Below, in pieces: positions 1,811-31,267 of a stretch of 33,131 nt of DNA. The position numbers and the translations under genes were made by a program. The first letter of the stretch is position 1. Each line of letters begins with the position of its first letter. This DNA is from a virus, in the IMG/VR virus record IMGVR_UViG_3300033149_001272, positions 1 through 33,131 of that record. One strand, written 5' to 3'. A model generated the notes under the pieces. The model did no database searches. It was not told the origin of the DNA and was given only the letters and a program-made list of their open reading frames with translations.

Positions 1811-1849
1811 GTTTATTAAAGATAAAGAAGAGTAATAATTACAATGATA

Positions 1850-2096
1850 CCTATTGATTCTACGGAGTCGATAGATGACTATCTGCTAGCCAAGTAATAT
1901 TGGTTAATGGATTTCGAATACTAGCTATTTGAACAATTATTTTAACATACTATAACGGCAAATTATGTATATCGTTGATTAATTGAATGGCTAAAGGTCT
2001 CGTAAGTCTTTAGTTTTTATCTGTTAAGTAGGTAAAACTATTTAATGGATTTTTAGTTGTGTTAATGAGGTTTAAATCCTCACTTAGCTTTAATCA
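1850..2096 (+). ncRNA. Candidate structured non-coding RNA
   Basis: At least six hairpins are visible. (1) 1851-1860 with 1865-1874, 10 bp with two G-U pairs and a C(UACG)G tetraloop. (2) 1885-1889 with 1921-1925, enclosing a CCAA/TTGG hairpin. (3) 1934-1939 with 1980-1985. (4) 1991-1996 with 2008-2013. (5) 2036-2040 with 2054-2058. (6) 2066-2070 with 2078-2082, 7-nt loop. The 11-mer TTAATGGATTT occurs twice (1904-1914 and 2042-2052), inside the loops of hairpins 2 and 5. No known RNA class is recognised; a packaging RNA, a regulatory RNA or a DNA packaging site are possible. Confidence 0.45.
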
Positions 2097-2128
2097 ATAC
2101 TTAATAATTTTAAACAATAACCCAAAAG

Positions 2129-2192: not shown

Positions 2193-2663
2193 ATGGCTCG
2201 AAAAACTAAACGTGAAATAGATTTAATCGTCGATGAACTGCGCTCACTCGTCCAATCTGGAGAGATATTACGTTACACGGAGAAAGACTTGGAAAAAAGA
2301 TTATCGTGGACTAGGAAGAGTATACGGAAACATTTGCGAGATATCAAATCCGAATATGGAAATAGAAGTTTACAAGTTATTACTATTGATTTTATAGAAA
2401 CTATGGACATTATGATGACAGATATAAAAGATGCCTGGTTAGCTGCAAGAAAGAGTGGTGAGGAGTATTTGATAGAGAAACACACTAATAGGATGTTTAA
2501 AGCATGGTATCAGTTTGCAGAGTTATTGGAACGATTCGGAATAAAACCTAAAGCAGTAGAGAATATAGACATTAATGCTAAAATAGAGACAGTACAGTTG
2601 AGTATTAATATGGATATAACTGACTTTAACCAAATACAAGAACTAGAGACAAGGAGAGTATAA
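2193..2663 (+). CDS. Small terminase subunit-like DNA-binding protein
   Basis: A 156-residue protein directly upstream of, and overlapping by TAATG, the large terminase. The N-terminal 55 residues look like a helix-turn-helix domain (RYTEKDLEKRLSWTRKSIRKHLRDI), followed by a long helical region. This matches small terminase subunits, which bind viral DNA and present it to the packaging motor. Sequence conservation in this family is low, so the call leans on position, size and the HTH. I chose ATG 2193 over a TTG at 2184 because AAA-ATG-G is the start context used throughout this genome. Confidence 0.65.
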   Translation: MARKTKREIDLIVDELRSLVQSGEILRYTEKDLEKRLSWTRKSIRKHLRDIKSEYGNRSLQVITIDFIETMDIMMTDIKDAWLAARKSGEEYLIEKHTNRMFKAWYQFAELLERFGIKPKAVENIDINAKIETVQLSINMDITDFNQIQELETRRV

Positions 2664-4021
2664 TGGTGTTTGAGCCGTTCAGTAAGCAAAAAGTAGCTTT
2701 GTATTACCTTACACAAAACAACGGAGTTAAGTTTATAGGTTACGGTGGTTCGGCTGGTGGCGGAAAAAGTTATATTGGTAGTTTTTGGATATTTAGTAGT
2801 TGTTTAAACAATCCTGGTGCAGTGTTTGTAATGGGTAGGCGGTCTCTTACTAATCTAAAGAAAACAACCTTTTTATCGTTTATTAAAGTAATTTCTAACA
2901 AGAAAGAAGGCTTAGGGCTTAATCCTGACGATTTCTTTAAAGTTAATCATCAGTCTAACATAATAGAATTCCATAACGGTTCGAAAATATTCTTAATGGA
3001 TATGGCACACCAACCTAGTGACCCTGAGTACCTTAGATTTGGGGGTTTAGAGCTTGACGGTGCGTTTGTTGATGAGAGTAACGAGTGCGATAAAAAGGCT
3101 TTAGACATATTATCTTCAAGGATAGGGAGGGGAATTACTGACTTACCTACTAAGTTATTAGAATCATTTAACCCTTCAAAGAATCATGTATATAGTAGGT
3201 TTTATCAACCGTGGAAGCTAAGGAACTTTGATAAGAATACAGTGTTCATACCTGCCCTACCTACTGATAACCATCATTTAAGTCCTGAGTATTTAGATAT
3301 GTTAAGGACTCTTCCAGAAGTACAACAACAGAGATTACTTCACGGTAACTTTGATTATGATGATGATGATAGGGCTTTATGTAGGTTTGACAAGATACTT
3401 GATTGTTTCACTAACACTCATTTAATAGCCGATAACGACAGTTCTGACCATTTCATTACTTCAGATTTAGCGATGCAAGGAAGAGATAATTTTGTTGTTA
3501 CTAGTTGGAAGGGTTTAAACTGTAAGTTTGAGCATATAAGTCCTAAGAACACAGGAAAAGATATTGAGATTACTTTAAAAAACACTGCAGAACAAACAAG
3601 AACTCCTAGAAGTAATATAGTCTATGATTATGATGGTATGGGTAATTTCTTAGGTTCGTATTTCGAAGGTACGATAGCCTTTAAGAACGGTTCAGCTGCA
3701 GTAGACAAGACTACTTACAGGAATCTAAAGTCCGAGTGTGCGTTCAAATTAGCGGAGTTAATCAATGAGGGTAAGTTGTTTATAGACATACCTAAAGGCT
3801 TTATTGTAAGAGTGGACGGTAAGGATATAGAGCTTAGAGAGGTCTTATTGGAGGAGTTAGGTCAGTTAAAGAGAGATAACCTTGATAAGGACGACCAGAA
3901 ACTAAAGATAATAAGTAAAGAAGAAATGAAAACTAATATTGGTAGAAGCCCTGATTTCTTAGATTGTTTGATAATGCGTATGTTCTGGGAAGTGAAACCC
4001 AATTATGGTTTAAGTTTCTAA
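2663..4021 (+). CDS. terL: Large terminase subunit (packaging ATPase-nuclease)
   Basis: A 452-residue packaging motor. The N-terminal ATPase has a Walker A GGSAGGGKS at residues 28-36 and a Walker B ending in Asp137-Glu138 (GAFVDESNE). The C-terminal RNase H-like nuclease has candidate metal-binding acids at Asp271 (SDLAMQGRD), in the YDYDG strand around 321-325, and at Asp431 (SPDFLDC). The protein docks on the portal (5803-7401), drives DNA into the prohead and cuts the concatemer. The length is normal for the family and the key residues look intact. Confidence 0.93.
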   Translation: MVFEPFSKQKVALYYLTQNNGVKFIGYGGSAGGGKSYIGSFWIFSSCLNNPGAVFVMGRRSLTNLKKTTFLSFIKVISNKKEGLGLNPDDFFKVNHQSNIIEFHNGSKIFLMDMAHQPSDPEYLRFGGLELDGAFVDESNECDKKALDILSSRIGRGITDLPTKLLESFNPSKNHVYSRFYQPWKLRNFDKNTVFIPALPTDNHHLSPEYLDMLRTLPEVQQQRLLHGNFDYDDDDRALCRFDKILDCFTNTHLIADNDSSDHFITSDLAMQGRDNFVVTSWKGLNCKFEHISPKNTGKDIEITLKNTAEQTRTPRSNIVYDYDGMGNFLGSYFEGTIAFKNGSAAVDKTTYRNLKSECAFKLAELINEGKLFIDIPKGFIVRVDGKDIELREVLLEELGQLKRDNLDKDDQKLKIISKEEMKTNIGRSPDFLDCLIMRMFWEVKPNYGLSF

Positions 4022-4079: not shown

Positions 4080-4088
4080 TTTATAAAA
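4080..4088 (+). promoter_or_regulatory. TATA box for RHH gene
   Basis: CAAAC-TTTATAAAA, 29 nt from its first T to the ATG at 4109; the transcript should begin at or next to the start codon (leaderless). Confidence 0.65.
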
Positions 4089-10677: not shown

Positions 10678-11535
10678 ATGACAAATACCGATACTATTGC
10701 TTACGAAAAGTTTAATTTAATTGAAGTTAAATCTGAAGAAGGTGAGAAGAATTATTTTATTGAAGGACACATATCTACTATTGACCCTGATAGTGTGAAA
10801 GACATTACTACTAATAGTTGCCAAGATGATTTAGTTGTTCAAACTAAAACTAAAGACATTACTATGGACTTGGACCATGAAAGTTTCAGAAACGAGGATG
10901 GAACTACTCCTGATAGAGATTTAAATAAAATCCCTGTGGCGAAGATAGTTGAGTCTAAAAGGACTGCAATAGGTACTTATGTTAAGGCTATGTTGAATTC
11001 TAGTCATCCTCAATTCAAGAATATTTTATCAAGTATCAAGAATGGGTTTTTACATTCGTTTAGTATTGCTTATCATGTTCAAGAAGCTGTTAATAAAATA
11101 ATTGATGGTGAAAACTTTAGATTATTAAATAAAGTTGAGTTAAGGAATGTTGGAATAACAGGTAATCCTGTTAATTCTAATGCGACATTCTCGGTTTCTT
11201 TGAAATCATATATAAACAAAATGGAAGAAAAACAAGATTATTCCAAACTAGAAGAAGCAATTGCTGAAATCAAGTCTACAGTAGATTCATTAGTTAATGG
11301 ATTGAAATCTAAAGAAGATGAAAAAGTTGAAGCTAAATCTAAAGAAGCTAGTGATAAACTAGAATCATTAGAAGCTGAAGTTAAATCATTAACTGAATCT
11401 GTAGAAGTAAAAGATAAAGAGCTTGCTGATTTAAAAAGTAAATTAGAAGAACCAGTTATGACTGGTGCGGTTGAGGCTGAAGTAAAGTCCGAACCTGCAA
11501 AGAACGAAACAAGAAGTTTCGATACATACATTTAA
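10678..11535 (+). CDS. Prohead protease fused to a scaffold-like coiled coil
   Basis: 285 residues. The N-terminal ~180 residues match HK97-type prohead serine proteases: candidate catalytic His67 in MDLDHE, Ser129 in HSFSIAY, and the conserved ELRNVGITGNPVNSNA segment around 154-169. Residues 180-260 are a Lys/Glu/Ser-rich coiled coil (IAEIKSTVDSLVNGLKSK), as expected for a scaffold or delta domain that directs assembly and is then cleaved. The major capsid gene follows after one base. The fusion explains why no separate scaffold gene is obvious. Confidence 0.8.
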   Translation: MTNTDTIAYEKFNLIEVKSEEGEKNYFIEGHISTIDPDSVKDITTNSCQDDLVVQTKTKDITMDLDHESFRNEDGTTPDRDLNKIPVAKIVESKRTAIGTYVKAMLNSSHPQFKNILSSIKNGFLHSFSIAYHVQEAVNKIIDGENFRLLNKVELRNVGITGNPVNSNATFSVSLKSYINKMEEKQDYSKLEEAIAEIKSTVDSLVNGLKSKEDEKVEAKSKEASDKLESLEAEVKSLTESVEVKDKELADLKSKLEEPVMTGAVEAEVKSEPAKNETRSFDTYI

Positions 11536-26796: not shown

Positions 26797-26826
26797 AATA
26801 ATGGGGGGTCGCACGCTCCCCTTATT
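26797..26826 (+). other. GC-rich hairpin in a non-coding region
   Basis: AATAA (26797-26801) and GGGG (26803-26806) pair with CCCC (26818-26821) and TTATT (26822-26826), with one bulged T (26802) and an 11-nt loop rich in G and C. It is the only long GC-rich run in the non-coding DNA here. Terminator, origin or protein-binding site are possible. Confidence 0.4.
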
Positions 26827-26921
26827 AAACCAAACAGCCTTTTTCTTTAATAACGAAAATCCTTATTATAGTTAGTTTATTGTTTTGAGTGCAAAAGAAC
26901 CTTATTCTTTATAATAGTTAA

Positions 26922-27781: not shown

Positions 27782-27842
27782 GTAGTAAATTCATTAACCA
27801 CTTATATTTAATAAAAAGATTTAAAAAGATTCTTGATTCTAG

Positions 27843-27850
27843 TATAAATA
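27843..27850 (+). promoter_or_regulatory. TATA box for the replication operon
   Basis: TATAAATA; transcription would begin near 27868, where the structured leader starts. Confidence 0.45.
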
Positions 27851-27866
27851 AGACATTAAGAAAATG

Positions 27867-27943
27867 AAAAGGTTTGTCGAGAACCTTTAAAGAAATAACG
27901 AATTGATTACTTATTTCTGTATTTGTTTATTAATAAACCTTTT
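27867..27943 (+). promoter_or_regulatory. Structured leader with competing folds
   Basis: Fold A: 27867-27877 (AAAAGGTTTGT) pairs with 27933-27943 (ATAAACCTTTT), 11 bp with one G-U, enclosing an 8-bp hairpin AGAAATAA (27891-27898)/TTATTTCT (27911-27918). Fold B: 27868-27874 (AAAGGTT) pairs with the near AACCTTT (27882-27888). The folds exclude each other, as in attenuators or riboswitches. A T-rich stretch follows (27941-27950). The operon's first gene starts at 27970. Confidence 0.5.
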
Positions 27944-27969
27944 GTTTTCTAAGTCTATTTAAGATAAAA

Positions 27970-28382: not shown

Positions 28383-28954
28383 AGTTTAAAGTAGATGGGA
28401 TAACAGACAATGAGTTAGAGATGTTAATAAATAATGATAATAAAATAAATAAAGATATATATATATATAATAATAGAACTAGTACTAGTATTAATACTAC
28501 TAGTAGTTATAATAATACATACATAACAAATAAATATTATTCTTCTATAATATATTTACTAATAAAAAAAGGTTTTACTTACTATTCAGAACTAAAGAAA
28601 CTCTTAGGAGTTACAAACAATTTTCATTTACCTAAACTAGAAAGAGATGATTTGATATTTAACAGAGAACTTACTATAGAAGAAAAGAATTATTTATTAT
28701 CATTATATCCTAATATGCCGAAAAAAGGAATAAGTACTATGAAAGTTTATGAACTAACTACTAACGCTAAAGAGTATTACTCTCAACCTAGTAATTATGA
28801 TTTATTGAAAAGATTTTCTAACTCTAATATAGATGATTATATTATTTTACAAAAGAACGATTACGAAATTAAACAAAGACTTTTAGAAGAAAAAGAACTC
28901 CAAAAAGAAAGAGAATTAAAAGCAAGACTTAGAAACTGGGGTATAAAAGAATGA
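28379..28954 (+). CDS. Possible replication accessory protein, 191 aa
   Basis: The N-terminal ~45 residues include a low-complexity Asn/Thr/Ser/Tyr segment encoded by an AT repeat and palindrome. The centre (SSIIYLLIKKGFTYYSELKK, then LLGVTNNFHLPKLERDDLI) looks like a winged-helix domain. The C-terminus is a charged helix (RLLEEKELQKERELKARLRN). It is ATGA-coupled to MCM, so a helicase loader or origin-binding partner is a reasonable guess, unproven. Confidence 0.45.
   Translation: MKFKVDGITDNELEMLINNDNKINKDIYIYNNRTSTSINTTSSYNNTYITNKYYSSIIYLLIKKGFTYYSELKKLLGVTNNFHLPKLERDDLIFNRELTIEEKNYLLSLYPNMPKKGISTMKVYELTTNAKEYYSQPSNYDLLKRFSNSNIDDYIILQKNDYEIKQRLLEEKELQKERELKARLRNWGIKE
28475..28506. repeat. 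32-bp imperfect palindrome in coding sequence
   Basis: Centred at 28490/28491 with 14 of 16 half-site positions matching, rich in ACTAGT. It is preceded by an AT dinucleotide run (28455-28470). Encodes a Thr/Ser/Asn stretch. Could be an origin, operator or recombination element, or simply low-complexity coding DNA. Confidence 0.45.
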
Positions 28955-30936
28955 ACGAACATATTAAATCAGATAAAGTAATAAAATTAATATACAAATA
29001 TTTTGATATGTGGGAAACTACTAAAATAAAGAAAACCCTAAACGAGGATTTATTATTTATTGAAATAGATTTAGCAGACCTGGAAACTTTTAGTTATAAG
29101 TTAGTTGATTTATTAAGATTATATCCTGAAGATATGGTAAGTATATTTAATAACACTATTAGAAACTTTAAAGAAAACTCAAACCAAAACAATATTAAAG
29201 TAAGGTTCAAGAACTTACCAAAAGTAGACCACTTGAATTTAAACGAGTTAAGGCAAGAACACATAGGAAAGTTAATTAGTTTCAAAGGAATGTTAAAGAG
29301 AAAGACAGACATATTACCAAAGACTAAATTCATTCATTATCTATGCACTAACCCTACTTGCAAATATGCTGAGAATTATTTAAATGTGCCACAAATAAAT
29401 ACAAAATTAAAGAAATTAAAGTCTTGTCTTAATTGTAAATCATCAGTAGAAGAGGTGAGCGAAACAATAACAGACTTCCAACAATTAGTTTTAGAAGAAG
29501 ATTTCGAGGACTTGACTGACTCAAACGACCAGCCTAAACAAAAGTACGTAGAGATAGAAGACGATTTAACTACTCCGTTAAAGGACACTAGTTTAATAGT
29601 AGGCTCAAAAGTAGAAGTAATCGGTATCGTAAAGAAACGTAACGAGGAGACTCAGAAAGGAAAATCAACTATTGGAGAGATTTACATTGAAGCAAATAAT
29701 ATTTTACCATTACAAGAGACTTTAATCAATATAAAGATAACCAAACAAGACGAGCAAGACATAATCGAATTATCAAAGAAAGATAATCTATTACAATTAC
29801 TTAACTCTAATATAGCGCCAACAATCGCAGGAAGGACAGAACAGAAACAAGCAGTATTATATCATATAGTGGGCGGTTCAAAGAAAAAGAACCAAAGAAG
29901 TCATATTCATATTAATATCATAGGAAACGCAAGTTTAGGTAAAAGCCAAATTTTAAGACGATTAAAACAATTCTTACCCAAGGCGGTTTACGTGTCGGCA
30001 GAGAACGCTTCAGGAGTAGGTTTAACCGGTTCTGTTATGAAAGACGAGCTAACAGGACAATGGGCAGTAGAGGCTGGAGCTATCGCTTACGCAAACAAAG
30101 GCTACTTTTATCTTGACGAGGCAGACAAACTAAAGAAAGAAGACATAACCAAAATGAACGAGGCTTTAGAACACTCTACCATCAGTATAAACAAAGCAGG
30201 AATAAAAACTCAATTAAAAGCAGACTGTCCTATTATCTCTGTAGCAAACCCGAAAGGTGGCAAGTTCAACGAAGACCAGGACTATATTAAACAAATCAAT
30301 TTCGACCCTACTTATTTGTCCAGGTTCGATTTAATCTTTATCTTGGACGGAAAGGACGGAGACTCTGAACAGGATTTAGTACTTGACAGGCTTTGTGGGT
30401 TCGATTCTGAAGACTTTGAAACCCTTGATGATGATTTACTAAGAAAATATTTAATGTACGCTAAAAACCTTAATCCAAGGATAAGCAAACAATTACTATT
30501 AAAGTTACAGAATTACTATAAACAAATCGCTGCAATGGCAAAAAGAAAAAAGTCAATAGACATTACTTATAGACAGTTTACTGGTTTAATTAGGATGAGT
30601 GAGGCAAGAGCTAAATTGTTTTTAAGGGACGAGGTTTTAATGGAGGACGTGAAAGAAGTAATCAAACTAATGAATTTTACTTTAGAAAAGCTTAATATCT
30701 CAGAGATAACGTCAGGGATAAGTAACACTAATAGAAGCCTAGCAGAATTAATCCCTGAAGTGATAAAACTCCTTGAAGGTAAGGGAATAAAGGCAAGCAA
30801 CGAGAACATAATAACTCAAATAGAAGAAATGACAACAAAGTTTAATAAGAATAAGATAGAAAAGATGATAGAACAAATGATAAGGGAAGGTGAGTTATTC
30901 AGTCCCAGAAAAAATGAGTTGAGGATTATAGGATAA
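28951..30936 (+). CDS. mcm: MCM replicative DNA helicase
   Basis: 661 residues, full-length archaeal-type MCM. The N-terminal domain has a C4 zinc site (Cys132, 137, 159, 162) and OB-type strands. The AAA+ domain has Walker A GNASLGKSQ at 325-333 (usual form GDPGTAKSQ), Walker B with Asp389-Glu390 (YFYLDEADKL), the EALEHSTISINKAGI segment, and SVANPKGGKFN. The arginine finger is Arg458 (LSRFDL). A C-terminal winged helix (ASNENIITQIEEMTTKFNKN) completes it. It should unwind viral DNA ahead of the host polymerase, since no viral polymerase is visible. The key residues are intact. Confidence 0.93.
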   Translation: MNEHIKSDKVIKLIYKYFDMWETTKIKKTLNEDLLFIEIDLADLETFSYKLVDLLRLYPEDMVSIFNNTIRNFKENSNQNNIKVRFKNLPKVDHLNLNELRQEHIGKLISFKGMLKRKTDILPKTKFIHYLCTNPTCKYAENYLNVPQINTKLKKLKSCLNCKSSVEEVSETITDFQQLVLEEDFEDLTDSNDQPKQKYVEIEDDLTTPLKDTSLIVGSKVEVIGIVKKRNEETQKGKSTIGEIYIEANNILPLQETLINIKITKQDEQDIIELSKKDNLLQLLNSNIAPTIAGRTEQKQAVLYHIVGGSKKKNQRSHIHINIIGNASLGKSQILRRLKQFLPKAVYVSAENASGVGLTGSVMKDELTGQWAVEAGAIAYANKGYFYLDEADKLKKEDITKMNEALEHSTISINKAGIKTQLKADCPIISVANPKGGKFNEDQDYIKQINFDPTYLSRFDLIFILDGKDGDSEQDLVLDRLCGFDSEDFETLDDDLLRKYLMYAKNLNPRISKQLLLKLQNYYKQIAAMAKRKKSIDITYRQFTGLIRMSEARAKLFLRDEVLMEDVKEVIKLMNFTLEKLNISEITSGISNTNRSLAELIPEVIKLLEGKGIKASNENIITQIEEMTTKFNKNKIEKMIEQMIREGELFSPRKNELRIIG

Positions 30937-31245: not shown

Positions 31246-31267
31246 CCTTGAAAAGAGGGTTCGAGAA
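31246..31267 (+). repeat. Leader repeat, copy B
   Basis: Same 22-nt block as 1-22, one mismatch. Here CTTGAA (31247-31252) and TTCGAG (31260-31265) can pair (one G-U), presenting loop AAGAGGG; in copy A this stem has a mismatch. Start codon ATG is 2 nt after the repeat. Confidence 0.6.

Follow-up and report, generated by a model that had tools for sequence, protein, structure and literature searches.

The DNA considered here, referred to as the window, is a viral stretch of 33,131 nucleotides, identical in length to its record (33,131 bp), which has a GC content of 31% and is classed as linear and may be a fragment. Among its genes are those for a large terminase, a portal, an SU10-type major capsid protein, a prohead protease and an MCM replicative helicase, a set that indicates a tailed archaeal virus. 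A quick maximum-likelihood tree places the viral MCM (28951-30936) with two Nanobdellota-type genomes (SH-aLRT 98) within the Woesearchaeota/Pacearchaeota clade, on a long branch which makes the grouping a lead. Strong relatives of the portal occur in 2 of the 371 Nanobdellota genomes searched, and in one of the two the match lies on a 36-kb contig, together with relatives of the capsid and protease genes. Judging from the MCM phylogeny and from these portal relatives in Nanobdellota MAGs, the host is likely a DPANN archaeon, probably a member of the Nanobdellota. Single-protein queries of IMG/VR, one with terS and one with MCM, came back without any relative, alignment-based queries being far more productive. 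An exact 13-mer, GAGGGTTCGAGAA, occurs near both ends of the record (10-22 and 31255-31267), just ahead of a start codon. The segment 32258-32623 displays a weak similarity to a Thoeris anti-defence Tad2-like domain (E 0.003, below the cut-off).

The locus of interest lies immediately ahead of the packaging genes and comprises the following features:

1812-1820, plus strand: TTTATTAAA, a weak TATA-like box of archaeal type (45th among about 66,000 positions scored with the TATA matrix)
1841-2110, plus strand: predicted transcript (fold z -4.71 over 1840-2110; both ends estimated, the 3' end uncertain)
1851-1874, plus strand: hairpin 1, a perfect 10-bp stem with a UACG tetraloop (pair probability 1.0)
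1875-2060, plus strand: central domain, a multiloop of five hairpins with the closing helix 1875-1881/2054-2060 (helix probability 0.87)
1881-1912, plus strand: hairpin A in the predicted fold, AUCUG-N8-GUAAUA-N8-UGGAU, repeat copy 1
1913-1933, plus strand: hairpin 3 in the predicted fold, 8 bp with a CUAGC loop
1934-1985, plus strand: hairpin 4 in the predicted fold, a long interrupted stem with a weak apical part (p 0.55-0.68)
1989-2015, plus strand: hairpin 5 in the predicted fold, with a CGUA loop and a weak resemblance to hairpin 1
2019-2050, plus strand: hairpin B in the predicted fold, a perfect 13-bp stem, AUCUG-N8-GUAAAA-N8-UGGAU, repeat copy 2
2061-2088, plus strand: 3' hairpin in the predicted fold, two 5-bp helices with one bulged C and a UUUAAAU loop
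2129-2137, plus strand: strong archaeal TATA box of terS, TTTATAAAT (matrix rank 10 of about 66,000)
2193-2663, plus strand: probable small terminase terS, 156 aa, all-helical, assigned from its position and from a homologous terS-terL pair in the related locus L231
2663-4021, plus strand: large terminase terL (PHROG 979 and Pfam Terminase_3)

The terS product matches no PHROG or Pfam family, and its AlphaFold model, which is all-helical (pLDDT 74), gave no significant fold match in the PDB. The 3' hairpin (2061-2088) resembles a tRNA T-arm, without matching any tRNA model.

Genes of the window are preceded by TTTATAAA boxes, and in six leaderless cases the first T of the box stands 29-31 nt before the ATG, a spacing that fits archaeal promoters. 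Regular TTTATAAA promoters followed by leaderless ATGs are located at 4080, 5773, 8413, 13917, 14233 and 25827, many of them directly at the end of the preceding gene. When the leaderless spacing of 29-31 nt is applied to the 1812 box, a transcription start is predicted near 1841, ten bases ahead of hairpin 1. From the 2129 box, which is the top-scoring site outside the matrix training set, terS would be transcribed from near 2158 with a short 5' UTR devoid of the hairpin fold. Owing to this strong box of its own, placed downstream of the RNA, terS should not need the hairpin RNA as a leader. No T5 run was found between the RNA and terS, which leaves the 3' end of the RNA uncertain; most genes in the window likewise have none.

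The gap 1811-2192 contains no open reading frame of at least 20 aa except a single 29-aa frame at 2059-2148, in agreement with the original prediction, which had described 1850-2096 as a gene-free stretch of 247 bp. Folded as plus-strand RNA, this stretch yields seven hairpins, where at least six had been announced, with 89 pairs (16 of them G-U) at a mean pair probability of 0.92; the 10-bp stem carrying a C(UACG)G tetraloop that had been singled out among them turns out to be perfect (1851-1874). The minimum free energy amounts to -65.9 kcal/mol (-64.1 in a second computation), corresponding to a z of -5.04 against 200 dinucleotide shuffles, and a repeat test with 3000 shuffles gave a z of -4.6, with none of the 3000 equally stable. 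Neither the minus-strand RNA (z -1.5) nor the folds computed with DNA parameters (z -1.3 for the plus strand and -0.7 for the minus strand) are unusual, so that the structure belongs to the RNA level and to the sense strand. A DNA cruciform would give no such strand-specific RNA signal.

The boundaries of 1850-2096 were picked by eye. On a fixed grid of 240-nt tiles, the best local tile (z -4.0) peaks at this same place without any choice of boundaries, and its GC-corrected residual ranks second among the 824 tiles in the window; for this genome, the z values of 120-nt tiles follow a well-calibrated null (mean 0, sd 1.08). The entire ORF-free gap 1811-2192 reaches a z of only -2.1 because its flanks are AT-rich and unstructured, and the structure is therefore graded as probable, short of certain. 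Several other tiles of the window with a low folding energy attain z values of -3 to -4.8, e.g., 11281-11520, which falls within the protease gene (z -4.8), and 27841-27960 in the gap after the HNH endonuclease (z -3.1, on both strands). A GC-rich palindrome, GGGGGGTCGCACGCTCCCC, occupies positions 26803-26830 in a 260-bp AT-rich gap without genes. Viruses of this kind seldom contain long noncoding gaps: over all scanned loci, only 46 gaps of at least 130 nt were counted.

Hairpins A and B have AUCUG...GUAAWA...UGGAUUU in common, with an identical spacing. They differ at nine positions, eight of which belong to the stem: three pairs are altered on both sides and still paired, one pair is altered on one side (G-U to A-U), and one pair is broken in copy A (A-C). 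Pairing is found for 12-13 of the 13 stem positions, and random substitution yields 13/13 in about 0.1% of trials. A and B have the appearance of copies that diverged with coordinated changes in their stems, the pairing having been kept if they are copies. These compensatory changes in the duplicated stem, together with a strand-specific signal that appears with RNA energies only, lend support to the RNA rather than DNA function proposed at the outset. Since hairpins 1 and 5 also resemble each other, a two-hairpin module (1+A and 5+B) may have been duplicated, the similarity between the two halves of the region being modest (p about 0.01 against shuffles).

The hairpin repeat had initially been perceived as an 11-mer, TTAATGGATTT, located in the loops of two hairpins. 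Both occurrences are real; their placement in loops is not, as TTAATGGAT forms the 3' arms of the stems 1882-1911 and 2019-2050 (pair probability 0.84-0.98), and the repeat is better described as two entire hairpins of 32 nt. The pseudoknot envisaged between GGAUUU and AAAUCC (2074-2079) is unsupported, because it would break both stems as well as the 3' hairpin, and the helices competing with it have a probability of 0.84-0.99. A pattern scan of IMG/VR for the repeated hairpin returned 26 matches, which were discarded as chance, since none possesses a nearby second copy or a comparable stem.

Rfam 15 produced no match in the whole window at the gathering score; when E values up to 10 were admitted, nothing came up beyond sub-threshold models, eukaryotic or streptococcal. 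Relatives were gathered by two alignment-guided scans, which provided about 80 portal and about 80 TerL relatives (~160 viral loci). Among these loci, blastn, nhmmer and a single-sequence covariance model did not find the RNA and gave chance matches only, as did the search of phages and plasmids, and no homologue was found in the 371 Nanobdellota genomes sampled. Distant homologues may be missed, owing to the limited reach of a single-sequence model, and the compensatory changes of the present data are those between the two internal hairpin copies, without homologues. Taken as it stands, 1850-2096 is probably a real RNA structure, outside any known family and confined to one virus in the present data.

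The nearest terS relative, L231 (terS 41-45% and TerL 47% identical), possesses an ORF-free gap upstream of terS whose folding is unremarkable (z -1.3) and which the covariance model fails to match even with filters off; its two T(A/T)ATGGA motifs and its 10-bp hairpin were accordingly not retained as a homologous RNA. Structured gaps in two other loci were also set aside, that of L159 as low-complexity repeats, and that of L292, whose neighbours are unlike those of the window, as an unrelated phage. L022 encodes a portal and a capsid protein 85% and 89% identical to those of the window virus, yet its TerL (L022 1-1090 versus window 2663-4021) is unrelated, and its contig ends there; as read from these sequences, the terminase module has been swapped. 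The TerL genes of L140 (16078-18051) and L231 (1103-3397) look intein-interrupted, that of L231 apparently with an HNH-type segment. Genes for tRNA-Thr(UGU) occur before terL in L140, together with a tRNA-Val, between terS and terL in L159, and before the portal gene in L148, so that small RNA genes recur near the packaging and portal genes of the relatives.

Another repeat surrounds the terS promoter, where three copies of AATWACCCA occur on the plus strand at 2116-2124, 2163-2171 and 2174-2182, the first upstream of the 2129 TATA box and the other two as a pair spaced 11 bp. This tandem AATTACCC (2163-2182), with units ~10-11 bp apart, lies just downstream of the predicted terS start. It is kept upstream of terS in L231 (642-659), where the surrounding noncoding DNA does not align with the window, and within the 2.3 Mb of fetched loci it occurs in the window and L231 only. 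The tandem repeat appears as a better candidate for an operator, a TerS-binding site or a pac site than the hairpins, whose suggested role as a pac/cos site is disfavoured by their poor folding as DNA.

The best explanation, held tentatively and at somewhat less than an even chance, is that of a lineage-specific, stand-alone structured ncRNA of ~250 nt, belonging to a tailed archaeal (probably DPANN) virus and acting in trans; transcription, both transcript ends, protein binding and the action in trans are what we infer here. The host RNA polymerase would start near 1841 from the 1812 TATA-like box, and the RNA would fold compactly into a 5' UNCG hairpin, a central domain of five hairpins and a 3' hairpin, the whole fold being closed by UGAU (1846-1849), which is able to pair with AUCA (2093-2096). 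A single protein, of the virus or of the host, would bind at the two AUCUG...GUAAWA...UGGAU hairpins, and the RNA would function in trans as a ligand or decoy for protein at about the transition to late genes. The promoter context at 1812 and 2129 favours a separate RNA, with a leader close behind. The 1812 box stands at the position expected for a start immediately 5' of the fold, which counts for a stand-alone RNA; the weakness of this box, the lack of homologues and hence of comparative covariation, the missing T5 run before terS, the z of only -2.1 over the full gap, the modest similarity between the two halves, and the absence of the fold from the same slot in L231 despite a homologous terS-terL pair count against it. 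Among the roles first suggested, that of a regulatory RNA stays plausible, in the wider form of a regulatory or structural RNA.

A role in cis, as the 5' leader of the late transcript carrying terS and terL, is possible, if rather unlikely. Read-through from about 1841, or from upstream genes, would extend into terS, and the fold would control elongation, stability or translation, possibly via the binding of a late protein (autoregulation). The location of the RNA directly upstream of terS on the same strand, the plus-strand orientation of the upstream genes and the absence of a T5 run before terS suit such a leader, whereas the strong 2129 box would give terS a short, structure-free 5' UTR (longer transcripts being possible) and the homologous terS of L231 has a TATA box and the repeat without the fold. 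It is unlikely that the structure is now non-functional, as a product of chance or a relic (e.g., a decayed RNA gene or a duplicated palindromic element) in a fast-evolving gap. The absence of any homologue found, the lack of the fold in L231, the full-gap z of -2.1 and the other tiles at z -3 to -4.8 are consistent with this idea, against which stand the strand-specific, RNA-only effect, the compensatory differences between hairpins A and B, and the rarity of long noncoding gaps in these viruses.

The tRNA-Thr(UGU) genes of L140, L159 and L148 and the T-arm-like 3' hairpin invite the idea that the RNA descends from, or has taken the place of, the tRNA genes beside the packaging and portal genes of relatives. 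This is very unlikely, as ARAGORN detected 0 tRNA genes, RF00005 does not appear even when E values up to 10 are admitted, and manual folding could not accommodate an anticodon arm between the D-like and T-like segments. In some headful phages repeats adjoin terS, as they do here, and repeats of the hairpin region could represent a DNA pac site which binds TerS and starts packaging; this is still less probable, given that the region does not fold unusually as DNA and that the conserved terS-linked repeat, AATTACCC at 2163-2182, is outside the hairpin stretch. The least probable reading is a packaging RNA acting in a DNA-translocating motor like the phi29 pRNA. Apart from its proximity to the packaging genes nothing speaks for this role, which had been among those first proposed: the virus has a TerS-TerL terminase, the fold is not conserved with the terminase in L231, and no packaging-RNA relative was found in Rfam at the gathering score.

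The phi29 pRNA is a viral structured RNA tied to packaging genes, a description that also applies to the RNA of the window, which differs by the lack of any sequence or structure match, by the presence of TerS-TerL and by the missing fold in L231. To our knowledge, phi29-type motors operate without a TerS-TerL pair. The lambda 6S leader and the HK022 put RNAs are leader RNAs of late operons, the put RNAs consisting of paired hairpins. They share with the RNA of the window the position of a structured RNA at the entry to the late genes; here, however, transcription is archaeal, terS has its own TATA box downstream, and read-through is a hypothesis. The viral tRNA genes of L140 and L159 are similarly small RNA genes near packaging genes within the same virus group, from which the RNA of the window is distinguished by the outcome of ARAGORN and RF00005. 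GOLLD and ROOL are large structured RNAs of bacteria and phages (PMC12286853). The RNA of the window is, like them, a long and highly structured ncRNA, and some RNAs of the GOLLD/ROOL type occur in phages; it is much smaller, belongs to an archaeal virus, and has neither an Rfam match nor comparative support.

Structured ncRNAs of archaeal viruses are hardly described in the literature surveyed, and DPANN viruses are little known. It is doubtful that the RNA is the first of a new class of structured RNAs in tailed viruses of DPANN archaea, with a duplicated putative protein-binding hairpin at the early-late boundary and a role in late-gene control or packaging, its novelty being weakly supported since it is based on the absence of relatives. 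An orphan RNA without homologue constitutes a lead for transcriptomics, short of a finding, with the conserved AATTACCC repeat ahead of terS as a companion lead that is directly testable. If confirmed, an RNA of 250 nt just before the packaging genes would mean that regulation by RNA, or the use of complexes between RNA and protein, extends to these reduced systems of virus and host.
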